Notes under the pieces: generated by a model
The model's input: only the letters and a program-made list of their open reading frames with translations
Databases searched by the model: none
Told to the model about the DNA's origin: nothing
Shown here: positions 45,001-62,467 of the stretch, one piece after another
Layout: every line of letters begins with the position of its first letter
How positions within the stretch are numbered: position 1 is the first letter of the stretch
From: Bolinopsis microptera
Lineage: Eukaryota; Ctenophora; Tentaculata; Lobata; Bolinopsidae
Reading direction: 5' to 3'
Assembly (NCBI RefSeq): GCF_026151205.1
Contig: NC_087074.1
Location: 10,697,226-10,761,225, forward strand
DNA length: 64,000 bases
Made by a program: the position numbers and the translations under genes

Positions 45001-46606
45001 TTCATGAAGATGGCAAGAATACCTGAGACCCTGATCGCCTCTATCTCCTGTGGAATGTGTTGTTTGGGTTTTGGAGTGGTCACGATTGCTAGGAGCTTTA
45101 CCCTCATGACTGTTGGTGGGTACTGTGCTCTTCTCTTTTAATCTATAATTATATTATCTTCGACTTAAGTATAGTTTTCGTATCTATGGATGCGGATTCT
45201 GGTGAGGAAGTGAGGCATATTTGTTTTACACGTGAGAGTGATTCTGCCCGGTTTTATTGGTCAATAGTGGAAGCTGATTGGTTAATTGCTGTCACGAGTA
45301 AAAAATATGCCTCACCTCCCCGCCAGAATTCACGACTAAAGATAATTTTATCGATGCTGATATTGTTGATAACTGAGTTAGTCTTAATTCTAAGCGCTGA
45401 GTCAAGTTAAAATTTAAATTTTGTCCGGTAAAAAACCATTTTTAACGGAATCATATCTTGTTTGGAGACATCTTTTTAAAATGGGTTTATATAACTTGGT
45501 AGGTAGCAGCAGCTATATTAATTGATAATATATAATACATATACATATTATATAATAAATATAGTGAGTAGTTAAAATTGAATTTATAATAAGGTGCATA
45601 ATTCTTTTTTTCCATGATAGGTCAAGCATTGAATAGCTCGGATATATCGTTTTTTAGTATGTTTTTATTAACGAAGTGTGGTATAAATAATAGAAATTAG
45701 TTATCTATAGATTAATATATTAATTGATTAATTATGACATATCACGACAGATCATTGTATCTCCAGCGAACCTGTTGAAAGGGGGCAGTGGCGTAGCGCT
45801 GGCTTTGTACAGATCTCGACTATCTAAAGTTGTGAAACCGACCCAGTATGGTCAGGTTTGTAAAACTTGTCAATTAAACTTGTAAAACTTGTCAGAGTGC
45901 CATGTTTTGTAGTCTTTTATATACGAGAAAGAATGTGTTAGTTTTACGGTAATTAGGAATATGATTAGCTGACTAATTGGTAACTAATAACTAATTCGGA
46001 GGTACGTGGGAGAGATTCAAAATCTCATATTTTTCCTCAACAGAACATATTTTATCAAATTCTCATTTCAGTTGTTTATGTTGCTGAACTGTTTCGAGTC
46101 CCTGGCCACTCTGATATCATCAGTAGGATTATATCAAGTTTATTTGTATACCAGGAAGTGGTTCCCGGGATTTGCGTTTACCATTCTCGTCGTATTGGAG
46201 GCAGTTGCTCTTGTACTCACTCTGTAAGCTCATATTATTCTCCCACGGTTGCGTGCAGTGTCATCAGTTTCATTTCTCTGATTTTGTTTTTTAAGCACTC
46301 CCATTTAAAATCTCAAAATCAAAAACTGCCGATATCTCTTGGGTGTATTTCAAGGGTCCATCTCATTATCCACATATTTAATTAATACCTAATTAACACA
46401 TAATTAACGTGTTCAGATGGGACGGTTGGTTAGCACGACTGCAGGGTGAGCCGGACCACATGGACCCCGAACTTCTTCAAGAAGACCAGCAGGAAGTAGA
46501 CGATGATGAGTTACTCAGTCCTGATGATTATGTGAGCACTAGTGAGAATGGACAAGTTAATAATGGACTGGAAATTGAGGTGAACCCGGGACGTTCGATC
46601 AATTAA
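23949..46606 (+). CDS. SLC46-like major facilitator transporter (11 exons)
   Basis: Predicted 12-TM membrane transporter of about 500 residues, a normal length for the SLC46 (proton-coupled folate transporter-like) family. Exons: 23949–24088, 24238–24446, 26802–26901, 30420–30517, 30919–30992, 42995–43088, 44562–44745, 44960–45111 (or 45115), 45751–45855, 46072–46223 and 46417–46606. Family features include a conserved EP near the N-terminus (RYLVEPVMLFFMYTY), a Cys-containing first loop, a GYIADRVART loop after TM2, GFGAFM in TM4, and RSRLSKVVKPTQYG before TM11. Splice phases agree at all junctions except exon 6/7, where a small exon may be missing. The exon 8 end was chosen to keep phase. 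The start at 23949 follows a CCCTTAG that looks like an acceptor; 23895 is the in-frame alternative. AATAAA lies at 46645. The substrate cannot be read from the sequence. Confidence 0.8.
24238..24446 (+). CDS. Transporter exon 2 (TM2–TM3)
   Basis: It follows CATTCAG and ends TCTGCAG before GTAAGG. It carries the loop cysteines (HCLYHKSEDICQNL), an N-glycosylation sequon (NGT), TM2 and the motif-A-like loop GYIADRVARTT. Confidence 0.85.
24690..26335 (+). repeat. 19-bp minisatellite in transporter intron 2
   Basis: About 85 tandem copies of TAGAATGGTATCTAGTTTA, with variants GGAATGG, CTTG and AATTAG, fill about 1.65 kb. Higher-order repetition of variants, for example the block ending in a doubled TTTATCTAG at about 26180–26330, points to segmental duplication within the array. 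Confidence 0.95.
26802..26901 (+). CDS. Transporter exon 3 (TM4)
   Basis: The acceptor is TTCATTACAG and the donor GG|GTAAGA. It reads VLLVNSLVMQMPKYIYYI, then AYFGGGFGAFMG. Phases 1 to 2 match its neighbours. Confidence 0.85.
26902..28400. other. Transporter intron 3, unique part
   Basis: It includes a (GT)n run at about 27144–27163 and two short frames (27356–27613 −, 28106–28306 −) without recognisable family features. No gene is supported. Confidence 0.5.
28404..30419 (+). repeat. 47-bp array of duplicated 3' splice sites
   Basis: About 42 tandem copies of a 47-bp unit. Each unit carries TGATTTCTATTTTCAG followed by GACAGCAATG. That is the polypyrimidine tract and acceptor of the intron plus the first ten bases of exon 4, which follows directly at 30420. 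A few units differ (GGATGTAGC, GGACAGAAATATT). Used as an acceptor, a decoy would keep phase but meet TGA after about ten codons. Confidence 0.95.
30420..30517 (+). CDS. Transporter exon 4 (TM4–TM5 loop)
   Basis: It reads TAMAYISDIADKNSRTSRI, then ADGMLQLGAMFG. This matches the SLC46 layout of Ay..D.....R..R after TM4. The true acceptor is distinguished from the upstream copies only because the reading frame continues past ATG as GCGTACATC. Confidence 0.85.
30919..30992 (+). CDS. Transporter exon 5 (TM5–TM6)
   Basis: It follows ATTGTAG and ends GTTAAC before GTGAGC. It reads TFVSGLLMSHATWYSTPLL. The phase 0 end joins exon 6 exactly. Confidence 0.8.
31032..31106 (+). repeat. Short tandem CCTAAAGTAA repeat
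   Basis: About seven copies of CCTAAAGTAA near the start of intron 5. Confidence 0.85.
32043..32155 (+). repeat. TTAGAA-type microsatellite
   Basis: Alternating GAATTA and GAAATTA units over about 110 bp. Confidence 0.9.
32160..34880. other. Intron 5 sequence without a gene
   Basis: It contains a perfect 36-bp palindrome at 33655–33690. A roughly 70-bp segment (TTGCTTTAATTACAAT...) is duplicated at about 33831 and 34210. A 36-bp direct repeat (GTGGTTAAGTTTTGTAGTTG...) occurs at about 34510 and 34628. The minus-strand frame at 34593–34913 is not recognisable. Confidence 0.5.
33655..33690. repeat. Perfect 36-bp palindrome
   Basis: CTATGAAAACCTTCCCCATG and its exact complement meet with no loop. 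It could form a cruciform. Confidence 0.9.
35311..35893. mobile_element. 579-bp TA-target inverted-repeat element
   Basis: Termini CCTTACAAGACATTTTT (35313) are inverted and end at 35891, flanked by TA on each side. The uninterrupted host sequence CAGGAATATATTTCAAG exists at about 36840, so the insertion site is exact. A direct repeat, GACGACCGAAATTTTGGCGG, occurs at 35347 and 35803 inside it. This is the behaviour of Tc1/mariner-type non-autonomous elements. Confidence 0.85.
37729..38859. mobile_element. 1,127-bp TA-target inverted-repeat element
   Basis: Termini GGGTAAGGCACGTAATTTTG (37731) and CAAAATTATGTGCTTTACCC (ending 38857) are inverted and flanked by TA. The empty site GAAGTCATATCTCAAG is present in sister repeats, for example at about 37010. 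The interior repeats ACCTAATTTTGTCA / TGACAAAATTAGGT several times. No protein was recognised. It is probably a non-autonomous Tc1/mariner-type element. Confidence 0.85.
39378..39478 (+). repeat. Dispersed ~92-bp repeat, copy 4
   Basis: Plus orientation. It is slightly diverged (GTATGTTTATAACC, ACGAGCGCCGAG) and lies in transporter intron 5. Confidence 0.8.
40067..40856 (-). CDS. Secreted protein with two PLAT/LH2-like domains, frame broken once
   Basis: An intronless minus-strand gene nested in intron 5 of the transporter. It starts at 40856 with a clear signal peptide (MKLQLSQLLFLGLLAAQALS). Two similar domains follow. The first has YQLDVVTGSRKYDGTDGSF, FQLGATDNF and DDAWMVDYI. The second has AGTDNIHARLTI, FIAGATDTF, IGKAGCIFI and DDAWLFDEIKV. 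The TG...GTDG..., F..GATD.F and DDAW...I.V pattern matches PLAT/LH2 β-sandwich domains, which bind lipids or proteins; the activity here is not known. The two halves are in different frames, and a single-base shift is needed at about 40540–40556. This is either a sequence error or a pseudogene. The stop is at 40067–40069. Confidence 0.6.
40912..40917 (-). promoter_or_regulatory. TATA box of the PLAT-like gene
   Basis: On the minus strand TCTATAAAGC lies 56 bp upstream of the start codon. That would place transcription start near 40885 with a short leader. Confidence 0.55.
40930..42994. other. Rest of intron 5
   Basis: No gene was seen. It holds copy 5 of the dispersed repeat and two long oligo-C runs (about 41757–41777 and 42359–42388). 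Confidence 0.5.
41533..41622 (-). repeat. Dispersed ~92-bp repeat, copy 5
   Basis: Inverted copy from TTAACGGGTGATACTCG to ATAAACCTACAA, with a small change in the middle (TTTCGACAGG). Confidence 0.85.
42995..43088 (+). CDS. Transporter exon 6 (end of TM6, cytosolic loop)
   Basis: The acceptor is TATTCGCAG and the donor GTAAGT. It reads LCLGFYVLFVIRDPQRAKKP and a basic loop (RAEIRIRQFQGS). The end is in phase 1, which does not match exon 7, so another small exon may lie in 43.1–44.5 kb. Confidence 0.75.
43895..44366 (+). repeat. 59-bp tandem repeat
   Basis: About eight units beginning AATAAATCATTAGGTAGTGA and ending GACTAGGGAGGTCTCG. The first and last units are diverged or incomplete. It lies in transporter intron 6. 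Confidence 0.95.
44562..44745 (+). CDS. Transporter exon 7 (TM7)
   Basis: The acceptor is CTTTTACAG and the donor CCA|GTGAGT. It reads YTGPSRYRARIYILSAAYLL, then FFVNYLLLPPFNWPADKIGL, which opens the second six-helix half. Confidence 0.8.
44960..45111 (+). CDS. Transporter exon 8 (TM8–TM9)
   Basis: The acceptor is TATTTTCAG. It reads ISSIANFLMVILVPFMKMAR and ISCGMCCLGFGVVTIARSFT. An end at 45111 keeps phase 0 with exon 9. The stronger-looking GTGGGT at 45116 would shift the frame. Confidence 0.7.
45194..45331. mobile_element. 138-bp MITE in intron 8
   Basis: GGATTCTGGTGAGGAAGTGA, then GGCATATTTG, is mirrored by AAATATGCCTCACCTCCCC, then GCCAGAATTC. A half copy lies near 23820–23850. Confidence 0.65.
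45751..45855 (+). CDS. Transporter exon 9 (TM10)
   Basis: It reads IIVSPANLLKGGSGVALALY, then RSRLSKVVKPTQYGQ. The RS..S..V....G signature before TM11 is typical of SLC46. The donor is TCAG|GTTTGT. Confidence 0.7.
46072..46223 (+). CDS. Transporter exon 10 (TM11–TM12)
   Basis: The acceptor is CATTTCAG and the donor GTAAGC. It reads LFMLLNCFESLATLISSVGL, then YTRKWFPGFAFTILVVLEAV. Confidence 0.85.
46417..46606 (+). CDS. Transporter exon 11 (cytosolic tail)
   Basis: It reads WDGWLARLQGEPDHMDPELL and an acidic tail, ending at TAA 46604–46606. The poly(A) signal AATAAA follows. Confidence 0.85.
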
Positions 46607-48156: not shown

Positions 48157-48236
48157 CTACAGCAGAACCTGCAGCAGGAGGAAGAAGGTCAAAATTCCAG
48201 GTCCTAATTTTACACCAACTCCCAAAACCAGCTCAT
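48157..48236 (-). CDS. Surface gene last exon: hydrophobic C-terminal tail
   Basis: It follows ATATTTTCAG and reads DELVLGVGVKLGPG, then ILTFFLLLQVLL and the TAG stop (48157–48159). A terminal hydrophobic segment with no cytosolic residues fits a GPI signal. Confidence 0.75.
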
Positions 48237-51200
48237 CTGAAAATATGTAGATTAAATCTCTGAATTCTTTAGGTAAATTTGGAGTTACTTTTTAAAGTTT
48301 GTACTTATATTTTTAATCTAAACTTTTATCGGGTGTTAACGTCGGAATATTCCTACTGTTGACTGGTCTCTCAAGAAGTGTCCAGAAATATTACCAAGCA
48401 CAGTGAGAGTCATAGAATCAGATATAGTTTCGTTCAGTTTACAAGTCAGTTCTACGGTTATCACTCCTGATTGTTCCACTGTAAGGTCTACAAGTTTCAG
48501 TGTGTACGTTGTGATGTAGGTTGCTGGGTCGAAAGATTCCTCAATGAATATAGTGGCCCTGATAATAAATGGAATTTAATTTCTTCAAGAGTATCAATAA
48601 TAAGACTTAATTTTTAAGTAGTACCCTGGAATCTGGATATATAAGCAACATCAAAAACTAGGCACTGATGAAATGTATCATGTTATTTTGAGTTTAAAAT
48701 TGTATATGTGCAATTTGATTAAAATTCGATCCAATTTAATATTGAATTTCATTACCATGATTACGGACAAAACTTACTTATTATCCACAAGGTCAGTGTC
48801 ATCAAGCTTCCAAGTTACTCTCTCTGGAACCGGCTTAGCAATCACATGTACATCTAAAATCAGTTCCTCGCCATTGTTTAACTTCTGATCTTCTACAAAA
48901 GTTTTGGTAAATGTCATCGGAACTGAAATGTTATAGCTTTAGAAGTTTATAAGTTTATAAGTTTATAGTGTCATAAAGTCCGGTAAAACTTCACCAGAAC
49001 TGATCATCATTAATTCACTTTTCTGTCCATAATTTCAGGATCAGAATTGTAATTTTTATCTCACCTCTGATTTCAACGGGATGACTAGGCACTATCGGTC
49101 CTTGATAAATGTGGAACTGTTCACCGTTCAGATCACTTGATACTTCAGCGAATCTCTTCCGTCTGTTTTTTAAGCACAAGTCTGTACAGCCAAAACTGAA
49201 AGTGTTGATGAATTATGAATAAAGTCATAAGGATTGGATACAGTCGAGTTATATAAAATGAGTATATAAAATGATAATTAAATGATTGATGAAGTAAACA
49301 CATATTCTAAAGATTAATCCTTGAGCTAACTTCCCGGGAAATGGAAAAGGTTCTATTTTATTTTACTTTTACGGAAGAAAATTAATTTAGGAAGGCCGAC
49401 TTTGAATATTCTTTAAACAGATGGTTTTTGAATGTGTTAACGTTTACAAAAAGAGTTCAACTACACTCAATGAAGATGCCTGCCTACATAGCTCAATGAA
49501 TATAATCAATAATGACATCATAATACCATTACCTGTTATCCGAAAGACTACAGACTTTTATAACAGCGTGAATGTAGATCGGAGTCTGGCTGTCCAAAAA
49601 GCTAAAAGCTTTAAAGATAAATCGTTTAGATTTGGGGTCTGAATGAGGCTGCAAATTCGAGTCTGTTTCAATAAACTTGAAGGTGGAGTCCACGATGCAC
49701 CTGAAATGAATTTAAATTAAGTAAAAGTAAAACCTAAAGGTCACAACATATTTATCTAGCTATATGGAAATTAAATTCCCTTCGTTAATATTTCACTTAA
49801 AAAAAGCTTTGAAATTATGGATATAACTATAAGCTATAGTTTCGTGCTTTCTAAAAAGAAAACAGCATCGTTATCACTATTTTAACTCAGTCACACTCAC
49901 TACTGTGTGATATGAAATATGAATACTATTTATGGCACGTTGAGACAGCAATAATCCAATCAGCTTCCAGCGTTGACCAATCAAAATGTTTTCACCCCCC
50001 CCCCCGCATAGGGGTAGGTGAAAACATGTTTCACCTCCCCCGTTGGGGGGGGGGGGGGTAGCGGGGGCGGGATCGTATGGCCACTGGACTCCCAATTAAA
50101 GAACTGACCCTTCCTTCACCAAGTCGTAGGACAAGTTTCCATCCTCCTCAGTTTCACTGTCCTTTGCCTGTATTCTGACCACACCCAGAGACTGGTCTGG
50201 ATCTAATGAATCCAGTGTGACCTGGTTATGTGTTTTAGTTTATCAAAGCTATTCTTCTCAGTGCTTAAGTGATTATTGTTGGGAATATCATAAGTTGCTA
50301 TAAAGTGGTAAAGAATCGAAATTTTATTCCATCCTAATTAACACATCCCAATCAACTCCTAAATTGGTTTAAAGACTTTAAATTTCAGATGATACATGGT
50401 CTTTATATTGATCCAAGGTCTTTATATTCCATGGTATAGTTGCAAAATGAAGTTGGCGATGAGTACTACAAATCAGTGGATTACAAATTTCACACAAGAC
50501 CTGCATGTTGATATTAGCGTTAAGTGTTAGCTGAAAGGGAAAGTTGACCACTTTGTTGGCATATGTTGCGTCCTCGTAGATATCTAGAAGGAAACGTAGC
50601 GAACCTTCACCCGTCACCTTTTCCACAATGGCTGCACCCTTTACCTCCCAAGATGCATACTTGGTGGCACCTGGGAAATTAAAAAAGTGTCTATCATGAT
50701 TGTGGTTACATTTAAGATTTATCAAGTTTTTATTTTTTAACTTTTAGCTTTTTTTCTTTATAAATCTAGCAACTTTCGATCCGACAAAACTGCTCCGTCA
50801 AACTATCTTTTATCGTTTAAAACGTAAATTGCAATTTGAATTGTGTTTAAAAAGTATAATTATAGTTCATAGATAATAAAAACTTGTGAATGTGCAGTTT
50901 TTGTTAACTGTTGATAATCTAGCTCTCTTATCTCTATTTTATCGCTACATTATAACTGCCATTGTGCGGGTACTGTGTTTTTACTTTATACAAGTACAAG
51001 TACACTATGGATGATGATGAAATGGATACTCTTCAAAGATTGTCAAATTACTCTTCCTACATTACCGAACACCATCAGGTCTATAACGCTTGGGTCACTG
51101 AACTCGCGGGAGCTAGATGAACTGTGAGGCAACTTGGTCGTTTAGCTCCGGACAGTCTATGCAACGTCTATGCAACGTCCATGCAACAACAAAAGAACCG

Positions 51201-54200
51201 TCTATGCAACGTCTATGCAACGTCCCTGCACAATGAACACTCTATGCACACTCCCTGCACGGTCAGTCTATGCAACGTCTATGCAACGTCTATGCAACGT
51301 CTATGCACCGTCCCTGCACAGTACCATATGAACACCGGCTACTAGCCGGCTACTAGCCGGCTAGTAGCCACTTTTGTAATAACAGCTCCTCAACTTCACA
51401 TTACCAACCGGCTACTAACCGGCACTTGAAAAGTGGTCACTAGCCGGCTACTAACCGGCTACTAGCCGGCTAGTGACCACAAAGTGGCTACTAACCGGCT
51501 ACTAAGCGGTCACTAGCCGGCTATTAGCCGAGCTCTAAAGCAGACCTACTAGTAGCCACTTGGTGGTTACTAGCCGGTTAGTAGCCGGTTAGTAGCCGGC
51601 TAGTGACCGCTTTTCAAGTGCCGGCTAGTAGCCGGTTTAGAACCGGCTACTAATAGGTCTGCTTTAGAGCTCGGCTAATAGCCGGCTAGTGACCGCTTAG
51701 TAGCCGGTTAGTAGCCACTTTGTGGTCACTAGCCGGCTAGTAGCCGGTTAGTAGCCGGCTAGTGACCACTTTTCAAGTGCCGGTTAGTAGCCGGTTGGTA
51801 ATGTGAAGTTGAGGAGCTGTTATTACAAAAGTGGCTACTAGCCGGCTTGTAGCCGGCTAGTAGCCGGTGTTCATATGGTACTGTGCAGGGACGTTGCATA
51901 GACGTTGCATAGACGTTGCATAGACGTTGCATAGACTGACCGTGCAGGGAGTGTGCATAGAGTGTTCATTGTGCAGGGACGTTGCATAGACGTTGCATAG
52001 ACGGTTCTTTTGTTGTTGCACGGACGTTGCATAGACGTTGCATAGACTGTCCGGAGCTAAACGACCAACTTCCCATCTTATCCGATCGCAAAGTACTGTT
52101 ATCAAGCTGCAGGCTGAACTTCTGGAAAGCAAATCGAAGCAGTTGGAATCCGTGCACTCCAAGTCCACCGTCAAGACCAGCGTTCAGGACACTGTTCAAG
52201 CTGGGATAATCACATACAGTCAAGCTGTTTCAAAAGCCGCACCTGTACTCACAGAAGAGAGCTTGAAAAAGGTTGTACAGAATGTTATATCAGAAGAGGA
52301 TCCAACTAAGAATGTGTTAATATTTGGTTTCGAGGAGACTAGTGAAGAGAATCTGAGTCATGAAGTTAGCGAGATGTTTCAGCAGATTGAAGAAAAGCCA
52401 CACTTCGAAGCTGTCCGGGTTGGGAAGAAGTCAGCTGAAAAGATTAGACCAGTTAAAGTTTCTTTTGAAAATTCAAGTACAGTCCATCAGATATTAGTGA
52501 AAGCCAAAGAACTGAGACTGATTCCACGTCATAAAACTGTTTTCATTTCTCCGGACCAATCACCTGAGGAACGAACTATCCATCAACAGTTGGTCTTAGA
52601 GATGAAACAGATTGCCAAAGAAGACACAGATAAACATTATTATATCAGAAGTGATAAAATTTGTTGTAAGGACAAGGTAGTGGAGTGAACGATTTATAAT
52701 AATGTTTAATGATATACATCCATGAGTTGTTTTTTTTAACCGTTGCTATACTAACTTTTAATGTCAATAAGTAATTTGGTTTTAGATTTTTTATATCATA
52801 CTCATTCACTGAATATCTTAGTTTGGGGTATATTCATAGGCCAGCCGCTTTGACATCGGCAATCTTTATTTTTATTTGGATTGTTGATATAAGCGGGATA
52901 AAAATGCTTTATTTCATTTCATTTTCAATTAGATTAATTTCAATAATTTCCATGATATTTCACCTGTTCTATTGAATGAGCACTCAAATGATATCTTAAG
53001 TTCTCCTCCTCTGGTTATACCGTTACTGTAATCAATTTACTGGAAATTCCTATCATCTGAAAAATTAATTTATAGGAAAATTTACAAGGAAAAAAACGTA
53101 ATTTTCAAGACTTGATTTATAATCTTTTTTTAAGTTATAATTTATTTATTCTACCACCCGTCTCTTCAGCTCAATCGAAATTAAACGACAAAAATCTGCT
53201 AATAACTAACAAATATAACGGTAAATGAAGAGCATCTTACTTGGTTTTTGTAAATGACATGACTGTTATTATAAGATACCGTCGTACCGCATTTGTCTAA
53301 ATCTGTTCTGATTTCTTGAGAGTCTCCCTTAATCTCACACTCTGTAATGAAGTATTGACAACGTGATTTACGGTATAAAAATTCTATCAGATATTCAAAA
53401 ATAGATGCAAACAAACTCTAAAAATTATCAAATAAAATACCTTTGTCGTTGAGCAATATTGCATCAAAACTAATTTTCTCGGTAATGAACAACTTTATTC
53501 CGTATCCATCACAAGTGACAGTAGCCACTGAAGACAACAAAATATAAATTATCACAGACAGAAGAAAGAAATTAATTTCCAATCCCTGTTGGTAAATATG
53601 AAGTCAGAAATTTGGAAAATATTTCTCAATGAACATTGATCTATACAAAATATGAAAGTGTAATAATATTAACAAGTACTGAGGATAACCCGATTGAAAT
53701 TTATTCCTTATCAATGATAATTTCATTTGGAAACCATAATGTCTCCAAATCATATTTAGTAGATTAACCTGGTGGACAAGATGGGGATTCAGATAGGGTA
53801 CCGTCAGTGCACACCATTGACGACGGTCCAGTTATGACAAATCCGCTGTCGCACCTTATTTCGTATGTTGAGCCTGAATCAATCGTCGAATATGGAGATA
53901 TGATGCCTTGTTCGATAACGGGCATGCTACAAGGTGCTGAAAGGGAAAATCTGATTAAGGGTAAAAAATGCTTCCACAGTTCAAAGTATTTTAGATATAT
54001 ACACTTTGTAGCGACTTACTCATGATTCAAAAATAAATTCTAATTTTACAATCCACATTTTGAGGACAAAGAAAGTTTTATGTTTTATTACGAGAGACCG
54101 TCAAAGTTATTTTATGTGAGCTCTAACATCTTCAATGACCATAGTACACCCTTTACGAGGTGCCACTATTAAGTACAGTAATCTGTTCTGGATGATTCCA

Positions 54201-57200
54201 GTTTAAACAGATGAGGTGCAACAAAAAACTATGGATCTAGACCAGTAAAGGTCGATAAAAAACTACCAGGTTCGAGGGGCCAGCTACCCTTCAACCTTAA
54301 AATAGCTACTGAAACATCAATGAATAACCAAAAGTGGAGTGACTCTCGGAGTTCAAGGAGGGGTGTAGCCGGGATGAAGTGCTCTGGGCAAAGCCGCAAG
54401 GACCCCAGTGTGCAGATGAGAACAAAGAAGTCGCCTTATTTCAACAGTGTTATTAGTTCACAGCATATCACTCATGTGGACCCGGAGAAGGGGAGAGCAC
54501 TCCCATGCAACTTTATCAAACACAGCATTAATGTGGGAACGTGGAATGTGTAATCATTGGAGACCAGTTCCTCAAAACTGTATGAATTGTCACAGAATAT
54601 GTCAGCATATAAAATGGATGTCTTGGGGCTGACAGAGACGCACAGACCCGGCACTGGTGAGGTTACCTTGGATGATGGGTCCTCTTTATTAACTCAGGAA
54701 GAAGTGATGGGTACAGACGACAAGGAGTAGGTTTAGTCCTCTCGAAGAAGACTAAAAATTCATTGATTTCATACAGTCCGATATCAGAACGTATTCTTGC
54801 AGCGAGGCTGCACAGTCGACATATCAACATTTCGATTGTGATAGCTTATGCTCCAACTGAGGATGCAGCAGTCGGGGTAAAGGATGACTTTTATCAGCAG
54901 CTATCTGGGGCATTTGATGAACTACCAGCTCATGACGTGAAGTTTTTACTTGGAGATCTAAATGCTCGCATTGGCCAAGATAACTCAGCTTGGTCCGGTG
55001 TGATTGGTAAGCATTCCCTTCACGTTTCATCAAATGACAACGGCCTTAGACTATTAGATTTCTGTGCATTACATCAGCTGACAATCGGTGGGACGCTTTT
55101 CCAGCATCGTGATATTCATAAAGGAAGTTGGAAGTCTCCAGATGGCCGCACAGTAAATCAGATTGACCATGTCTGTATTTCTACCAAGTGGAGTCACTCT
55201 CTACTTGACGTAAGATCATGCAGGGGTGCAGACATTGGCTCCGATCATTATTTGGTTCGGGGTCAATTTAGAGTCAAACTTATGGCAGTTCAAAAAATGA
55301 ACGCCTCTCGTAGGATATCTCCAGCAATTGAGAATCTTAGAGATCAGTCCAAGGTTGAAGAGTACTGCATTGCTCTTCAAAATCGTTTTAGCTGCCTACC
55401 AATGGAGGAGAATCTTGATGGAGAATGGACATTAGTTAAGGATACTATTAAAGAAGTGTCTATGGAGGTACTGGGTGAGCGCCCACGGCGCAGAAAGCAG
55501 CAGCATTTGTCTCAAGAGACAAAAAGTCTTATTGCAGAACGCAGTAAGATTAAACAGATGGCGCCTAGTGACAACAACAATAGGAGCGAGTATTCTCGGG
55601 CCAACAAACTTGTCAAAAAAAGCTGCAGGAAAGACGACGAGAATTGGGCTCTTAGAGTTGCAGCAGATCTGGAAACAGCTGCTGTCCATGGCCGGCAAAG
55701 GGAAGTCTGGCAACGGATAAAAACACTGTCCGGTAAGAAGAATCGAAAATCAACTGCTGTAAGAGACAAATCCGGGAAGTTGATTGCTGATCCCTCTGCT
55801 CAGAGAGAGAGATGGGGAGAACATTTTTCGGAGCTATTAAACCCTCCTCCCACGAATGCGGATCTGTCTGACCTGGACCATCTTGAAGTGGTTCCATGCT
55901 TTCCTTATCTTGGTGATGGTGATGGTCCCCCCACTAGACTTGAGATTTTAAACTGTCTCAAAAAATTGAAGAACCACAAAAGTGCTGGGATCGACGAAAT
56001 CTCTAATGAGCAGTTAAAGTATGGGGCAAGTGGTCTTGTGGATAGGATGGAGAAATTGTTCTCTAAAGTTTGGAATTCAGAAGCAGTGCCTGACGACTGG
56101 TTGAAAGGCATCGTGATAATTGTACCAAAGAAGGGTGATACCTCTCATTGCTCCAATAATAGGGGAATCACTCTAAGATCTACAGCATCTAAACTGTATC
56201 AAATCATCATATTACAACGCATGAGTGACGGTTTAGAAAGTTTGCTACGAGACAATCAGTGTGGGTTTAGAAAGAACAGATCATGCATTGATCAGATTTA
56301 TTCACTCCGCACTATTATACATAACTGCATTGAATATAATCTCCCCCTGTATGTAAATTTTGTGGACTTCAAGGCAGCTTTTGATTCCATCGACAGGAAT
56401 TATATTTGGAAAGCTTTCAGTCATTATGGCCTGCCATGTAAATACATTCAAATAATACAGGCATTCTTTAATGGAACTGTTAGTGCAGTTAGACACAATG
56501 GTGAACTATCAGAATGGTTTGAAGTAAGTTCAGGCAGTGGCCAAGGAGACATTCAGGGTCCCCCACTTTTTAATGTCTGCCTCAATGTGGCTGCTGAGAG
56601 AACAGAAAGCAACAAAGTGGTGTCCCACGGAGCGGTTCTTCAAAGATCTATCAGTCCGCTTGTTGATGATATCACTGTGTTAGATACAGATTATGCAGAT
56701 GACATGGCTGTACTGGATAACAGCGAGGAAGGTCTTCAAGAAACAACTGACCTTTTGTGTATGTATGGTGCCCAGGGAGGTCTTAGAATCAATGGTAAAA
56801 AGACTGAGGCTATGGTCATTGGTAAAGCAACCTCTCAACGGCCATACACGAAAGAAGCCACAGTGAACATCACTGTTGAAGACACGCCAGTGCAGCAAGT
56901 TAGTGACTTTACGTACTTAGGTACAATTATTTCCAGCGACGGTACTATCGACCGTGAGCTGTCAGCTAGGATTCAGAAAGCTTCCGGAGCCTTCAATCAA
57001 CTGAGTAATATATGGAAAAACCGCAACATCCAGTCTTATACAAAGATCAGGATTTATAAGGCAGCAGTTTTGACAATATTGTTGTATGGTAGTGAGGTTT
57101 GGAACACAACCAAAAAGCAGCTACATCGCTTTGAGGTGTTCCATCAGCGTTGCTTGAGGAGAATACTTAGGATAAAATGGCTCGATCGGGTTAGAAACAC

Positions 57201-60200
57201 TGAAGTGCTGGAGCGTGCAAAGATAAATCCAGTAGAGATGTACATAGGAGCAAACCGCCTGCGTTGGTTTGGCCATGTCACCAGAATGCCAGACACTAGG
57301 CTTCCTAAGTACCTGCTTAACTGGACCCCTGCCCATGGGAAAAGATCTAGGGGCCGTCCAAGAAAGAACTGGAGGAAATGTCTGCTGGAAGATGCTGCGG
57401 CGTTTACAGGAAACACTGACATAGACCTAGAAGGAGCGAGCGAGATGGCTAGTGACCGCAAACTTTGGAGGGAGATGATACGTCACAAACGGGAGTTCAT
57501 TGGTGCAGGCCACTCGAATGATTGAGGAGACCTAATCAAGTAAGTCTAACATCTTCAAGGGCGAATCAAACTATTGCAGTTGTATGTTTACTGCAACGTA
57601 TAAGAAGACTATTAGCTAAAAGGGAATCAAAATATTATGGAAACAAGATCATACACAAATAATCGTCCTTAAACTTTTGTAGAACATTATTCTTAATTAA
57701 ATCACCTAGAACGTTGACCACAACTCCGTGGGTAGATACAGGTGAGTTTGGGTACTGTGTTGATGTTACCGAGCATTTGTATGTGAATGTTGACTGGTTA
57801 GCAAAATCAGCAAGCTTGGTAGCCTTGATGGTGAGTTCTGCCACCTGTATGCCGGTTACATTGACTGTACCGTTGCTGACATCATAGTTCGTAATATCCG
57901 ATACAGATACAGTCGTACCATCAGGAGCCTTCCAGACTACATTAACAGGGGTTCCACCTACGTCTAGTTCTCCTACTGCACAGGTCAACGTCTGATCCTC
58001 ACCAGTAATGACTGAATAAGTCACTGACGCTACAGCTGAAAGATGTATATGCTTATATGTAAATAAATCATTCAGTCTTTTTAAACTTTTGAAGATGGCT
58101 ATAATTTTTTCACCCTGGTCTACTGACCAGGAAGAAAAGTTAAAGTGGGCAAAAACAAGTGTTTTTTGCCCACCTCAGAGGTAGGCAGAGCATCTCAATG
58201 CTATCCTTTCGTGGGCTATCTTGGCCCAACCTCTCTTAAAAAAAGAAAAAAAAAGCCTAAATTAAGAAAGATTACTGCTGAAAAATTCGAATAAGACCTC
58301 GTTATACACATTGTGGTTTTCAAAATGTATCAAGATTACTCACTGAAAACGTTAGAGTTGACATCAGTCTCTTCTGGAGACGCTGATGTTTTTGCATGCT
58401 CGTCAGATTGAATGACACAGGTGAAAAGAGCATCAGCCGTGTTTTCACCAACAGGTATGGTCAGAATTGTAGTTTGACTGTTGGTGCCAGAAACGTAAGT
58501 TCCAACTTCAATAGCATAGCTGTCAGTACCGTCAGTTATAGCATCACCCGAAGGTTTCTTCCATGTTACCGCCTCCAGCTGCTTACTCAAACCACTTACT
58601 ACACAAGATATTGTAGCTTCTGTGTTTTTCAGCACTTCGCTACCCTTAGCTTTTACATCTGAAACAATCAGTCATTTAAAGTAAGCCCGCAATAAAAAAT
58701 ATCAACAGTATTGTACAGGAACTGAATCATTGAACTTTCTCAACTAAATTCACTGGATCCTATGATGAGTTTAATTTTGTTTTTACAGTAGGATGTAACA
58801 AGTTATATCTTAGATATAAAGTTAAAACAGCAGAGCATCATTTATGGGCAGTTATAAATACCACCAAGTCCTAAGAAACTTACCGAAAGTAAGGAAGTTG
58901 ACAACAATCTCTCTTTGAAAGTAGATGTTGCTGAATCCGAATATTCTACAGATTGCGCAGCACATTTGTATGTCGCGGGATTTGCAGCGACAGCTACACT
59001 TGTAAGAGTGGCAACATCGATGGTCAGAGTTGATGTCTGAATTTTGGTACCAGAGTCAGCTGATCCCTGTGCGATGGTGTACCCTGCACTATCACTTGTT
59101 ATATCAGCCCCAGCATTATCCTTCCACGACACAATAACATCTGTAACCACATCTCCGATATCACAAGTCAATGTCTGAGCCACAGCGGTGGTGGCTTTTT
59201 TAGGAGTCTCCGGAACGACGGCTAAAATAATTTGATTCTTTCAAACTCACAAAACATTTGGTATGTTAAAGTATCATTACATGTAGTTGTAACTAAAATA
59301 GCTTAAATTAAGAAAGATTACTGCTGCAAAATTTGAATAAGACCTCGTTATACACATTGTGGTTCTCAAAATGTATCAAGATTACTCACTGAAAACGTTC
59401 GAGTTGACATCAGTCTCTTCTGGAGACGCTGATGTTTTTGCATGCTCGTCAGATTGAATGACACAGGTGAAAAGAGCATCAGCCGTGTTTTCGCCAGCAG
59501 GTACGGTCAAAATTGTAGTTTGAATGTTTGTGCCAGAAACGTAAGTTCCAACCTCAATAGCATAGCTGTCAGTACCGTCAGTTATAGCATCACCCGAAGG
59601 TTTCTTCCATGTTACCGCCTCCAGCTGCTTACTCAAACCACTTACTACACAAGATATTGTAGCTTCTGTGTTTTTCAGCACTTCGCTACCCTTAGCTTTT
59701 ACATCTGAAACAATCAGTCATTTAAAGTAAGCCCGCAATAAAAAATATCAACAGTATTGTACAGGAACTGAATCATTGAAATTTCTCAACTAAATTCACT
59801 GGATCCTATGATGAGTTTAATTTTGTTTTTACAGTAGGATGTAACAAGTTATATCTTAGATATAAAGTTAAAACAGCAGAGCATCATTTATGGGCAGTTA
59901 TAAATACCACCAAGTCCTAAGAAACTTACCGAAAGTAAGGAAGTTGACAACAATCTCTTTGAAAGTAGATGTTGCTGAATCCGAATATTCTACAGATTGC
60001 GCAGCACATTTGTATGTCGCGGGATTTGCAGCGACAGCTACACTTGTAAGAGTGGCAACATCGATGGTCAGAGTTGATGTCTGAATTTTGGTACCAGAGT
60101 CAGCTGATCCCTGTGCGATGGTGTACCCTGCACTATCACTTGTTATATCAGCCCCAGCATTATCCTTCCACGACACAATAACATCTGTAACCACATCTCC

Positions 60201-62467
60201 GATATCACAAGTCAATGTCTGAGCCACAGCGGTGGTGGCTTTTTTAGGAGTCTCCGGAACGACGGCTAAAATAATTTGATTCTTTCAAACTCACAAAACA
60301 TTTGGTATGTTAAAGTATCATTACATGTAGTTGTAACTAAAATAGCCTAAATTAAGAAAGATTACTGCTGCAAAATTTGAATAAGACCTCGTTATACACA
60401 TTGTGGTTCTCAAAATGTATCAAGATTACTCACTGAAAACGTTCGAGTTGACATCAGTCTCTTCTGGAGACGCTGATGTTTTTGCATGCTCGTCAGATTG
60501 AATGACACAAGTGAAAAGAGCATCAGCCGTGTTTTCACCAGCAGGTACGGTCAAAATTGTAGTTTGAATGTTTGTGCCAGAAACGTAAGTTCCAACCTCA
60601 ATAGCATAGCTGTCAGTACCGTCAGTTATAGCATCACCCGAAGGTTTCTTCCATGTTACCGCCTCCAGCTGCTTACTCAAACCACTTACTACACAAGATA
60701 TTGTAGCTTCTGTGTTTTTCAGCACTTCGCTACCCTTAGCTTTTACATCTGAAACAATCAGTCATTTAAAGTAAGCCCGCAATAAAAAAAATATTAACAG
60801 TATTGTACAGGAACTGAATCATTGAACTTTCTCAACTAAATTCACTGGATCCTATGATGAGTTTAATTTTGTTTTTACAGTAGGATGTAACAAGTTATAT
60901 CTTAGATATAAAGTTAAAACAGCAGAGCATCATTTATGGGCAGTTATAAATACCACCAAGTCCTAAGAAACTTACCGAAAGTAAGGAAGTTGACAACAAT
61001 CTCTTTGAAAGTAGATGTTGCTGAATCCGAATATTCTACAGATTGCGCAGCACATTTGTATGTCGCGGGATTTGCAGCGACAGCTACACTTGTAAGAGTG
61101 GCAACATCGATGGTCAGAGTTGATGTCTGAATTTTGGTACCAGAGTCAGCTGATCCCTGTGCGATGGTGTACCCTGCACTATCACTTGTTATATCAGCCC
61201 CAGCATTATCCTTCCACGACACAATAACATCTGTAACCACATCTCCGATATCACAAGTCAATGTCTGAGCCACAGCGGTGGTGGCTTTTTTAGGAGTCTC
61301 CGGAACGACGGCTAAAATAATTTGATTCTTTCAAACTCACAAAACATTTGGTATGTTAAAGTATCATTACATGTAGTTGTAACTAAAATAGCCTAAATTA
61401 AGAAAGATTACTGCTGCAAAATTTGAATAAGACCTCGTTATACACATTGTGGTTCTCAAAATGTATCAAGATTACTCACTGAAAACGTTCGAGTTGACAT
61501 CAGTCTCTTCTGGAGACGCTGATGTTTTTGCATGCTCGTCAGATTGAATGACACAGGTGAAAAGAGCATCAGCCGTGTTTTCACCAGCAGGTACGGTCAA
61601 AATTGTAGTTTGAATGTTGGTGCCAGAAACGTAAGTTCCAACCTCAATAGCATAGCTGTCAGTACCGTCAGTTATAGCATCACCCGAAGGTTTCTTCCAT
61701 GTTACCGCCTCCAGCTGCTTACTCAAACCACTTACTACACAAGATATTGTAGCTTCTGTGTTTTTCAGCACTTCGCTACCCTTAGCTTTTACTCAAACCA
61801 CTTACTACACAAGATATTGTAGCTTCTGTGTTTTTCAGCACTTCGCTACCCTTAGCTTTTACATCTGAATCATTGAACTTTCTAAACTAAAATCACTGGA
61901 TCCTTAGATCCTATGATGAGTTTAATTTTGTTTTAACAGTAGGATGTAACAAGTTATCTTAGATATAAACTAACTGACCACAGCGTTTCAACAGCTCAGT
62001 GTCTAAGAGCGGCAATAATACGTAATAATTTGGCCCTTTATTGAATGAATTGTTGTACGAAAATCATTGAACTTACTTGATCATCAGTATGACAGATAAA
62101 ACTGTCAGCCTAGATATGTTACGCTCACCCAGTGTTAGAATGGTAGCTTCGACTTCTACGTTGCTGGTTGCAGGAGAATCTGTGTATTGGCCAGACTGGA
62201 CTGAGCACTTGTAGGTCACTGATGATAGACTAGTAAAATCAGGCAGCTTCGCAGCTTTGATGGTTAGTTCTGCTACCTGATTTCCGCTTCCATCTACTGA
62301 TCCTCGGCTGAAACCATAGTTGTCGGTATCCCCTGTCAAAACTTCAGCACCATCATTATCCTTCCAAGTTACAGTAGCAGGGGTTCCACTAGGGTCGAGC
62401 CCTCCGATATTGCAAGTCAATGTCTGGTCTACAGTGATGGTGATATCCTTGGGAGTCGAAGTAACAT
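48157..62467 (-). CDS. Ig-array / sushi / ZP / Ig surface protein gene (5' end not seen)
   Basis: Large multi-exon gene for a cell-surface or secreted protein. Exons in transcript order: 62129–62467, 61480–61864, 60976–61311, 60434–60748, 59930–60265, 59390–59704, 58884–59221, 58344–58658, 57706–58035 (Ig); 53769–53936 (sushi); 53441–53527, 53241–53383, 52964–53025, 50552–50670, 50109–50221, 49533–49700, 49065–49195 (ZP and cleavage site); 48778–48922, 48395–48558 (Ig); 48157–48236 (tail). Splice sites and phases agree at nearly all junctions; the one between 53241–53383 and 52964–53025 does not close. The protein ends right after a hydrophobic stretch, which suggests a GPI-anchor signal or a short membrane anchor. 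ZP domains polymerise and Ig and sushi domains bind ligands, so a recognition or coat role is plausible but inferred. No signal peptide exon was found up to the window edge. Confidence 0.75.
48395..48558 (-). CDS. Surface gene: membrane-proximal Ig, second half
   Basis: It reads YTLKLVDLTVEQSGVITVEL, then TCKLNETISDSMTLTVL. The SG.ITV.LTC strand F pattern is Ig-like. The donor is GTAATA. Confidence 0.75.
48778..48922 (-). CDS. Surface gene: membrane-proximal Ig, first half
   Basis: It reads FTKTFVEDQKLNNGEELILD, then VPERVTWKLDD with the Ig tryptophan. The domain is split by a phase 2 intron. Confidence 0.75.
49065..49195 (-). CDS. Surface gene: ZP end with furin-like site
   Basis: It reads FGCTDLCLKNRRKRFAEVS. 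The CxxxC pair closing ZP-C is followed by RRKR, the basic cleavage site characteristic of ZP precursors. Confidence 0.8.
49533..49700 (-). CDS. Surface gene: ZP-C second part
   Basis: It reads CIVDSTFKF, then SKRFIFKAFSFLDSQTPIYI, then AVIKVCSL. The GC..D......RF.F.AF.F....I.I..V.VC pattern is diagnostic of ZP-C. Confidence 0.85.
49860..50100. repeat. Intronic hairpin with C and G runs
   Basis: ATGTTTTCACCCCCCC and GGGGTAGGTGAAAACAT form an inverted pair at about 49985–50026. A second TTTCACC and oligo-G block follows. Confidence 0.6.
50109..50221 (-). CDS. Surface gene: ZP-C first part
   Basis: It reads VTLDSLDPDQSLGVVRIQAK, then GNLSYDLVKEG. It joins the next exon as KEGC in frame. Confidence 0.75.
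50552..50670 (-). CDS. Surface gene: ZP linker exon
   Basis: It reads ATKYASWEVKGAAIVEK, then GSLRFLLDIYEDATYANK. The end at 50552 (AAA|GTGGTC) is the one that keeps phase. A later donor at 50485 would break the frame of the next exon. Confidence 0.6.
51131..52071. mobile_element. 931-bp palindromic element inserted in the retroposon
   Basis: The ends GGTCGTTTAGCTCCGGACAG (51136) are inverted and finish at 52066, with AACTT on both sides (51131–51135 and 52067–52071), a 5-bp target duplication. Next to each end are 12-bp repeats (GTCTATGCAACG). The centre is a mirrored field of CCGGCTACTAG units around about 51600, so the whole element folds back on itself. There is no coding capacity. Confidence 0.85.
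52080..52688 (+). CDS. ORF1p-like protein (coiled coil, RRM-like, C-terminal domain)
   Basis: About 200 residues remain after the palindromic insertion. The order coiled coil, RRM-like (NVLIFGFEE...VRVGKKS...RPVKVSF) and C-terminal domain (FISPDQSPEERTIHQQL, HYYIRSDKICCKD) matches the architecture of L1-type ORF1 proteins, which are RNA-binding trimers. The original N-terminus is separated by the 931-bp insert. Joined across the target duplication, ATG 51117 would be in frame. Confidence 0.7.
   Translation: MRSQSTVIKLQAELLESKSKQLESVHSKSTVKTSVQDTVQAGIITYSQAVSKAAPVLTEESLKKVVQNVISEEDPTKNVLIFGFEETSEENLSHEVSEMFQQIEEKPHFEAVRVGKKSAEKIRPVKVSFENSSTVHQILVKAKELRLIPRHKTVFISPDQSPEERTIHQQLVLEMKQIAKEDTDKHYYIRSDKICCKDKVVE
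52964..53025 (-). CDS. Surface gene: ZP-N end exon
   Basis: It reads NGITRGGELKISFECSFNRT, the Itr....i.F.C.. end of ZP-N. The donor G|GTGAAA joins the next exon in phase. The acceptor (TTACAG at 53026) leaves the upstream phase unresolved. Confidence 0.6.
53241..53383 (-). CDS. Surface gene: ZP-N core exon
   Basis: It reads EFLYRKSRCQYFITECEIKG, then DLDKCGTTVSYNNSHVIYKN. L..CGT.......VIY.N is the ZP signature. The donor is GTAAGA. Confidence 0.8.
53441..53527 (-). CDS. Surface gene: ZP-N first exon
   Basis: It reads ATVTCDGYGIKLFITEKISF, then DAILLNDK. It follows GTCTTCAG and joins the sushi exon in phase 1. Confidence 0.75.
53769..53936 (-). CDS. Surface gene: sushi/CCP exon
   Basis: A complete CCP module in one phase 1–1 exon: PCSMPVIEQGIISPYSTIDS, then YEIRCDSGFVITG, then VCTDGTLSESPSCPP. 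It has the four cysteines and the RC..GF motif. CCP modules are common in complement and adhesion proteins. Confidence 0.85.
54200..57560 (+). mobile_element. Nearly intact LINE in an intron of the surface gene, antisense
   Basis: It spans a 5' region (from about 54200), an endonuclease–reverse transcriptase frame and a short 3' end. It separates the sushi exon from the first downstream Ig exon of the host gene and runs on the opposite strand. Exact borders and target duplication were not resolved. Confidence 0.75.
54520..57525 (+). pseudogene. LINE ORF2: AP endonuclease plus reverse transcriptase, two lesions near the N-terminus
   Basis: The frame is open for 920 codons from 54763. EN motifs: GDLNARIG, IDHVCIS, then GSDHYLVRG (about residue 160). 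RT motifs: NNRGITLRSTASKLYQ, GFRKNRSCIDQIYSLR, FVDFKAAFDSID (about residue 535), GSGQGDIQGPPLFN, DTDYADDMAVL (about residue 643) and GLRINGKKTEAM. The tail has LRWFGHVTRM and RGRPRKNWRKCL. The true N-terminus is upstream: NVGTWNV, a stop at about 54550, SLETSSSKLYELSQNMSAYK and LGLTETHRPG with the catalytic Glu. A one-base shift near 54690 follows. The element is probably inactive but young. The clade is uncertain (RTE- or L2-like features). Confidence 0.85.
57706..58035 (-). CDS. Surface gene: Ig domain D
   Basis: A 330-bp phase 1–1 exon. It reads EDQTLTCAVGELDVGGTPVN, then VVWKAPDG, then STFTYKCSVTSTQYPNSPVS. The C...W...Y.C pattern is Ig. Confidence 0.8.
58344..58658 (-). CDS. Surface gene: Ig domain B, copy 1
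   Basis: A 315-bp phase 1–1 exon. It reads NTEATISCVVSGLSKQLEAV, then TWKKPSG, then ADALFTCVIQSDEHAKT. It differs from copies 2–3 at a few positions (for example GTNSQTTILTIPVG), so it is the most diverged of the four. Confidence 0.85.
58884..59221 (-). pseudogene. Surface gene: Ig domain C, copy 1 (frameshifted)
   Basis: The domain is AQTLTCDIGDVVTD, then VSWKDNAGADIT, then ATYKCAAQSVEYSDS. An extra CT near 58910 makes the exon 338 bp instead of 336 and shifts the frame just before the donor. Because the exon is phase 1–1, skipping it would keep the rest in frame. Confidence 0.75.
59390..59704 (-). CDS. Surface gene: Ig domain B, copy 2
   Basis: A 315-bp phase 1–1 exon. Its protein is identical to copy 3, and it lies 1,046 bp from copy 1. 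Confidence 0.85.
59930..60265 (-). CDS. Surface gene: Ig domain C, copy 2
   Basis: A 336-bp phase 1–1 exon. Its protein is identical to copy 3. Confidence 0.85.
60434..60748 (-). CDS. Surface gene: Ig domain B, copy 3
   Basis: A 315-bp phase 1–1 exon. It differs from copy 2 only by silent changes. Confidence 0.85.
60976..61311 (-). CDS. Surface gene: Ig domain C, copy 3
   Basis: A 336-bp phase 1–1 exon, identical in protein to copy 2. The flanking introns are also almost identical. Confidence 0.85.
61480..61864 (-). CDS. Surface gene: Ig domain B, copy 4, with a 70-bp internal duplication
   Basis: The first 70 bp of the exon is repeated in tandem (units at 61721 and 61791). Used from the normal acceptor, the 385-bp exon stops early (SGLSKS then TAA). 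An AG at the duplication join (TTTGAG|TAAAAG) would start a 312-bp exon at 61791 in the correct phase, but its pyrimidine tract is poor. Confidence 0.7.
62129..62467 (-). CDS. Surface gene: Ig domain A (most 5' exon seen)
   Basis: A 339-bp phase 1–1 exon. It follows AATTCAG and ends before GTGAGC. It reads VDQTLTCNIGGLDPSGTPAT, then VTWKDNDG, then VTYKCSVQSGQYTDSPAT. It is related to domain D at the other end of the array. Confidence 0.8.

Follow-up and report, generated by a model that had tools for sequence, protein, structure and literature searches.

What kind of protein places a tandem array of immunoglobulin (Ig) domains on a zona pellucida (ZP) module, and what might it recognise? The question is raised by a 64-kb stretch of the genome of the ctenophore Bolinopsis microptera (C3:10697226-10761225; hereafter the window, whose own coordinates are used for single features). 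A first-pass annotation had read there, on one strand and mostly in phase, a tandem Ig array, a CCP module, a ZP domain with the CGT signature, an RRKR site, a further Ig domain and a hydrophobic tail, and had proposed a recognition coat. The genome has only distant matches to an Antennapedia homeodomain (13 matches of 37-55% identity, all 50 candidates scored), in keeping with ctenophores, which are not known to have Hox genes; a COX1 search of the assembly gave no match.

Exon chain and domains of the window gene

These elements are borne out as a splice-bordered chain of 20 exons on the minus strand, with matching phases and Pfam matches, that is read from 62467 (where the first Ig exon begins) to 48157 (last base of the stop codon) in the order IgA, IgB1, IgC1, IgB2, IgC2, IgB3, IgC3, IgB4, IgY, Sushi/CCP, seven ZP exons, two exons of a membrane-side Ig and the hydrophobic tail. 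For thirteen of the 20 exons the flanking signals themselves were found (a preceding AG, a following GT or the stop codon); the remaining seven, all IgB or IgC, were placed by the same AG/GT border motifs. The array counts nine Ig exons, two of them damaged; array exons and the CCP exon are of phase 1-1, except for two array exons of altered length. The wording "mostly in phase" holds for most exons and fails for IgB1 (a duplication), IgC3 (two extra bases) and ZP exon 3 (one missing base). The features are as follows.

62129..62467, minus: array exon IgA, phase 1-1 (splice borders, profile match)
61480..61864, minus: array exon IgB1, broken by a 70-bp internal duplication, acceptor region shortened (splice borders)
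60976..61311, minus: array exon IgC1 (splice borders, profile match)
60434..60748, minus: array exon IgB2 (splice borders, profile match)
59930..60265, minus: array exon IgC2 (splice borders, profile match)
59390..59704, minus: array exon IgB3 (splice borders, profile match)
58884..59221, minus: array exon IgC3, frame shifted by 2 extra bases (read from sequence)
58344..58658, minus: array exon IgB4 (splice borders, profile match)
57706..58035, minus: last array exon, IgY (splice borders, profile match)
54676..57525, plus: LINE reverse-transcriptase frame in the IgY-CCP intron, outside the gene product (open frame; RVT_1, E 1.2e-25)
53769..53936, minus: Sushi/CCP exon, phase 1-1 (splice borders, Pfam)
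53441..53527, minus: ZP exon 1, ZP-N (splice borders)
53241..53341, minus: ZP exon 2, ZP-N with CGT signature (splice borders; ZP-N, E 3.3e-7)
52964..53056, minus: ZP exon 3, one base short against all four paralogues, frame broken (paralogue comparison)
50501..50670, minus: ZP exon 4 (splice borders)
50109..50221, minus: ZP exon 5, ZP-C, Cys5 to Ala (splice borders, paralogues, GP2 alignment)
49533..49700, minus: ZP exon 6, ZP-C, Cys7 to Ala (splice borders, paralogues, GP2 alignment)
49065..49195, minus: ZP exon 7 with the RRKR site (splice borders; ZP-C, E 2.4e-19)
48778..48922, minus: membrane-side Ig, exon 1 (splice borders, Pfam)
48395..48558, minus: membrane-side Ig, exon 2 (splice borders, Pfam)
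48157..48236, minus: C-terminal hydrophobic exon and stop, without cytoplasmic residues, GPI-signal-like by eye (splice borders)

The LINE had escaped the first-pass annotation. A candidate cadherin fragment at 50221-50109 was dropped, the stretch being ZP exon 5. Within the intron that separates ZP exons 3 and 4 lies a large palindrome (51128-52074) with arms of 430 bp that are 99% complementary and lie 87 bp apart; it is built of short repeats and resembles a foldback element. Exons at 44500-46600 on the plus strand encode a multi-pass membrane protein that looks by eye like a transporter.

The Pfam search places Sushi (25.3 bits; Pfam cut-off 20.7), ZP-N (31.0 bits; cut-off 24.7), ZP-C (70.2 bits; cut-off 24.6) and, downstream of the ZP module, the membrane-side Ig (I-set, 27.0 bits; cut-off 23.7) above their thresholds, whereas the array Ig domains reach none of the Pfam cut-offs (E 0.002-0.056 at best with Ig models, 0.027 for one C1-set match). 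Despite these scores the array domains are, judged from sequence and models, members of the immunoglobulin superfamily with its B-F disulfide and core Trp, because the Cys-Trp-Cys pattern is invariant, their profile matches Ig domains of the PDB (best E 1.6e-7; IgM constant region from 3.6e-7) and the AlphaFold model of IgC is an Ig sandwich (pLDDT 84.7); that of IgB is a weaker Ig sandwich (pLDDT 63.6). The same array profile, at E up to 1, found no additional Ig of this type in the 64-kb window.

ZP-N and ZP-C stand in series, both above their Pfam cut-offs, with ZP exon 3 frame-broken in the window and open in all four paralogues. The four ZP-N cysteines, Cys6, Cys8 and CysA-CysB are present. 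Human GP2 is the sole PDB match of ZP-C at E up to 0.1, and in this weak alignment (E 0.094) two GP2 cysteines stand opposite Ala, the other ZP-C cysteines being kept; by the usual numbering the two replaced residues would be Cys5 and Cys7. GP2 keeps the Cys5-Cys7 pair, whereas the window family has lost both: they are Ala in all five loci of the family described below, which departs from the canonical ZP cysteine set. Among the nematode models treated in PMC7456536, nearly all have the Cys5-Cys7 bond, with CUTL-28b as the exception; because CUTL-28b lacks the same pair, its loss here is better taken as variation inside the ZP family than as exclusion from it. Exactly one disulfide pair is missing and the domain shows a dN/dS of 0.25, which speaks for a conserved altered fold of ZP-C rather than decay. 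A furin site (RRKR) follows ZP-C in all five loci, together with a putative C-terminal anchor in the form of a hydrophobic tail lacking a cytoplasmic part, read in three loci and matched in the copy on C10. As far as its exons predict, the window protein belongs to the ZP-module proteins, though its cysteine set is unusual. An Ig domain between furin site and anchor also seems unusual.

Related loci and the extent of the gene

A query running from ZP-C to the tail gave 78 matches in the genome (E up to 10) at 22 places more than 20 kb apart, and the combination of array, CCP and ZP occurs at five loci: the window, C3:10.54 Mb, C1:1.16 Mb, C1:1.26 Mb and C10:16.83 Mb. Their arrays hold nine Ig domains in the window, 19 at C1:1.16 Mb, three at C1:1.26 Mb (one split), five on C10 and at least seven at C3:10.54 Mb, the last count including an IgC piece, IgB and IgA beyond an inserted LTR element. 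The membrane-side Ig is present in four of the five loci, with none in the part of the C10 copy that was read. In that copy the sequence past ZP exon 7 (L017 after position 2700) seems to differ: where one would expect the membrane-side Ig, a splice-like site is followed by a short Cys-rich frame. The insertion in the array at C3:10.54 Mb is an LTR retroelement (C3:10548600-10562900) with gag/pol-like and further open frames.

It is probably not the case that all ZP relatives carry Ig arrays: among 150 of 312 candidates scored, there was no IgY-type match near the five ZP places on C11, C12 and C13 and at C8:17.9 Mb and C10:4.3-4.4 Mb. A related ZP frame, L013 (C8:3394478-3394912; 59% identity), has exons ZP2-ZP6 joined without introns in a 259-codon open frame and is likely an old processed copy. 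Other ZP proteins of the genome, L001 and L007, have a LamG-like stretch before the ZP, and Cys5 and Cys7 are present by eye in L001. Further tandem arrays with IgB-type exons, spaced roughly 950-1060 bp apart and with many units equal in score within an array, are given below; the counts are lower bounds from 150 of 827 candidates scored.

C4:3526370-3552335: IgB-type array, at least 28 IgB matches
C7:10776618-10795792: IgB-type array, at least 21 IgB matches
C9:10551748-10562428: IgB-type array, at least 11 IgB matches
C9:9774709-9788978: IgB-type array, at least 11 IgB matches
C5:15.99-16.05 Mb: IgB-type array, an extended series of units with only about 45-54% identity to the query

The unit read in the C4 array is an IgB-IgC doublet, and no ZP was seen in the stretch after this array.

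The annotation had named a split of the Ig array and the CCP-ZP part into different genes as one outcome that would overturn it. Since the C1:1.16 Mb paralogue reads as a single open frame of about 2,680 codons (three TSP1, 19 Ig, CCP, ZP, Ig, tail), the two parts are judged to be one gene. Uninterrupted by a stop, the frame counts 2,687 codons, of which six stem from three surplus bases on either side of each of the three TSP1 exons; the other 30 exons are bordered by AG/GT or the stop codon, and the frame runs from TSP1 to the stop, its 5' end not having been found.

The same strand carries, upstream of the window, three VWD-C8-VWC sets, three TSP1 exons and one LamG exon whose frame opens, by eye, with a signal-peptide-like stretch (window coordinate 75711). 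In the VWD sets Pfam recognises VWD, C8 and VWC only, VWC at 27.3 bits being slightly below its cut-off of 27.6; a TIL label given by eye has no Pfam match. On the simplest reading, the window gene would comprise LamG, three TSP1, three VWD sets, Ig array, CCP, ZP, Ig and tail, the VWD portion being its least certain part. The extent that the annotation gave the protein would then stand for the Ig-to-tail part and fall short upstream, with LamG, TSP1 and VWD sets outside the window. The contrary reading, in which LamG, TSP1 and VWD make up a gene of their own and the Ig-ZP gene begins elsewhere, would accommodate the VWD sets at C3:4.7-5.0 Mb, where there is no ZP match, and the C1 copies, which have no VWD match; it appears rather unlikely, however, given that the phase-1 donor of the third VWC exon is compatible with the phase-1 start of IgA, that LamG lies within 2 kb upstream of Ig arrays, on the same strand, at C7:1.01, C7:8.79 and C7:9.30 Mb (three places where chance would give about 0.009, from 150 LamG and a rough figure of 15 array loci), and that three TSP1 exons directly precede the array at C1:1.16 Mb.

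Beyond the window, at 95.5-101.3 kb on the same strand, a second gene-like cluster (L012) shows an unnamed domain, TSP1 and IgB-, IgA- and IgY-like exons (IgY 88%), then SRCR where CCP-ZP would stand, and then another unnamed domain. A farnesoic-acid-methyltransferase-like label for the domain at 76.1-76.6 kb and 95.5-96.0 kb was dropped, because Pfam gave nothing for it at E up to 0.01.

The window copy itself carries three breaks, in IgB1, IgC3 and ZP exon 3; at the last site all four paralogous loci have a longer run and an open frame. That this copy is a pseudogene within an otherwise active family is a serious possibility, if one short of an even chance, as the three breaks are accompanied by a LINE inside one intron and by six nonsynonymous to one synonymous difference between its ZP and that of the C3:10.54 Mb copy. 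The breaks sit, however, in near-identical duplicated sequence, where errors are expected in an assembly described in PMC10232365 as built with wtdbg on PacBio reads and polished with Illumina data, and two of the three fall in symmetrical exons that could be skipped. They may reflect either decay or assembly error, which look alike in the present sequence. According to PMC10232365, the annotation of B. microptera drew on Iso-Seq.

Evolution of array and base

The Ig units are mostly homogenised within a locus: with the two C3 copies counted as a single locus, their mean distance is 0.023 for IgB and 0.022 for IgC within loci and rises to 0.096 and 0.079 between them. The units that do not group with their own array are edge units, namely the last IgB and first IgC of C1 and one IgC of C10. 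Between loci, a three-branch codon model of C3p, C1a and C10 gives a dN/dS of 2.63 for IgB and IgC together (212 codons, LRT 8.83, p=0.003), 3.75 for IgB alone (p=0.007) and a non-significant 2.02 for IgC alone (p=0.12), values that come from three loci of one assembly, whose paralogues may exchange sequence, and from tests picked after the pairwise values were known. IgY shows 0.76 (p=0.55), CCP+ZP 0.25 (p=1e-6; without ZP exon 4, which was also left out of CCP+ZP in the comparison with introns) and the membrane-side Ig 0.25 (p=0.008; C3p, C1a, C1b). C1b was omitted from the array tests owing to its split IgB, and the set was taken without one window IgB row and one IgY row that belong to the neighbouring second cluster. 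When a random unit per locus replaced the consensus, dN/dS of IgB and IgC exceeded 1 with p<0.05 in 60 of 60 draws (median 2.38).

The introns provide a further yardstick. Across the three locus pairs the nonsynonymous rate per site of IgB/IgC is 0.092, 0.079 and 0.083 against 0.038, 0.023 and 0.030 in their own introns (one-sided Fisher p 0.001, 0.0001 and 0.0005). Introns outside the IgB/IgC unit diverge by 0.057-0.101 when pooled, as much as the Ig exons, which suggests that the exchange or divergence of the whole array unit is of later date than that of the rest of the gene. A distant array as the source of imported exons is disfavoured, because such import would raise synonymous change as well, yet this is low in IgB/IgC (0.033-0.056). 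Variable sites were not significantly enriched in loops (p 0.15 and 0.21). That the array changes fast while its base is conserved suggests a function in recognition; the recognition coat of the first-pass annotation fits in so far as a fast-evolving Ig array does sit on a ZP base. New against that annotation are the five loci with the combination and the resemblance, by eye, of the tail to a GPI signal.

Candidate roles and comparable proteins

Uromodulin and GP2 bind microbes from epithelia or mucus, and a mucosal or immune role, with the fibre lying on epithelia or within mucus and the Ig array binding microbes, may tentatively be proposed from the domain company: LamG/pentraxin-like, TSP1, VWD and VWC domains accompany the array, a neighbouring gene carries SRCR, and the best PDB match of ZP-C, weak as it is (E 0.094), is GP2. 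PMC11797021 counts combinations of SRCR, CCP, Ig, TSP1 and VWD among the candidate immune receptors of Mnemiopsis, and a sea-anemone ZP protein is among those reported in PMC4667181 to rise on immune priming. Placed instead within the egg envelope, the fibre would let the Ig array meet sperm, as VERL meets lysin, or serve self/non-self recognition in the manner of VC70. This somewhat less likely role would account for the same plan of repeats, ZP and furin site and for an array that is homogenised, diverges in its edge units and is under positive selection, as described for VERL in PMC2704960, but Mnemiopsis is reported to self-fertilise (PMC4811168) and the genome holds five loci.

Were the coat purely structural, with the array as a spacer whose length matters rather than its sequence, near-identical units in very variable number would be expected; a spacer should nevertheless be neutral or conserved, and the dN/dS above 1 of IgB and IgC and their amino-acid change in excess of the introns make this improbable. 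Several loci, Ig ectodomains and fast change would also suit an allorecognition receptor, but the units are homogenised, there is no cytoplasmic tail and ctenophores are known to fuse readily, so that this role appears highly improbable.

ZP bases with variable N-terminal domains are found in uromodulin, GP2, DMBT1 (SRCR) and alpha-tectorin (VWD), none of which is known to have an Ig array. Hydractinia Alr and Botryllus fuhc proteins have cell-surface Ig ectodomains, a feature shared by the window family, whose tail has no cytoplasmic part; Alr and fuhc proteins are not known to have a ZP module. Abalone VERL has 22 tandem ZP-N-like repeats and a ZP module, and PMC2704960 reports repeats 3-22 as homogenised (>95% identity) and repeats 1-2 as positively selected. 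Like VERL, the window family combines tandem repeats on a ZP base with concerted evolution of the repeats and positive selection. Its repeats are however Ig domains in IgB-IgC doublets instead of ZP-N-like units, which sets it outside VERL; the selected units are the homogenised IgB/IgC between loci rather than repeats 1-2; and it is multigene, with LamG, TSP1 and VWD upstream. In ascidian HrVC70/HaVC80 (EGF repeats and ZP) and nemertean NeZPL2 (eight CUB and ZP), found on eggs or oocytes and regarded in PMC11673550 as gamete-recognition candidates, a repeated domain is likewise joined to ZP; the repeats are EGF or CUB rather than Ig, and egg expression is shown there. By analogy, the window protein may work like VERL or VC70 while standing outside those families.

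In the open-access literature, covered mostly at title and abstract level, no protein combining a ZP module with an Ig array was found described. The repeat-plus-ZP plan is already known (ZP-N-like, EGF and CUB; also SRCR in vertebrates); here it is built with Ig doublets. A survey of 97 animals counts Ctenophora among its species (PMC6262864). Zona pellucida does not occur in the main text of the study of Mnemiopsis immune genes (PMC11797021); in a review of ZP evolution ctenophores appear in the reference list only, and the main text of a paper on Mnemiopsis speciation has neither immunoglobulin, zona pellucida nor sperm.

On balance, the gene probably encodes an anchored or furin-released ZP-fibre protein with an Ig brush as a fast-evolving recognition surface. 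The protein would be secreted and GPI-anchored and would then be cut by furin at RRKR, leaving the membrane-side Ig at the membrane; its ZP modules, whose polymerisation we infer from the ZP module and furin site, would assemble into a fibre on an outer surface, be it epithelium, mucus or egg coat. From this fibre the array of Ig doublets would project as many near-identical binding sites. Unequal exchange would set the length of the array and keep the units alike within a locus, so that a new binding variant would spread across the whole brush and loci would diverge from one another. The excess of amino-acid change would imply a partner that changes as well, a microbe or a gamete partner; the microbe is slightly preferred because of the company of LamG, TSP1, VWD and SRCR, the gamete partner being a close rival. 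The further step, to an independent system of Ig-based recognition whose own principle would combine many equal sites on each fibre with few loci and rapid replacement, can be offered only as a doubtful possibility. The paralogues turn a list of domains into a recognition hypothesis. An Ig version in a ctenophore, its array changing fast over a conserved ZP base, would carry the repeat-plus-ZP pattern to the deepest animal branch and would provide concrete genes for two questions, namely how ctenophores recognise at their surface and how old Ig-based recognition is.
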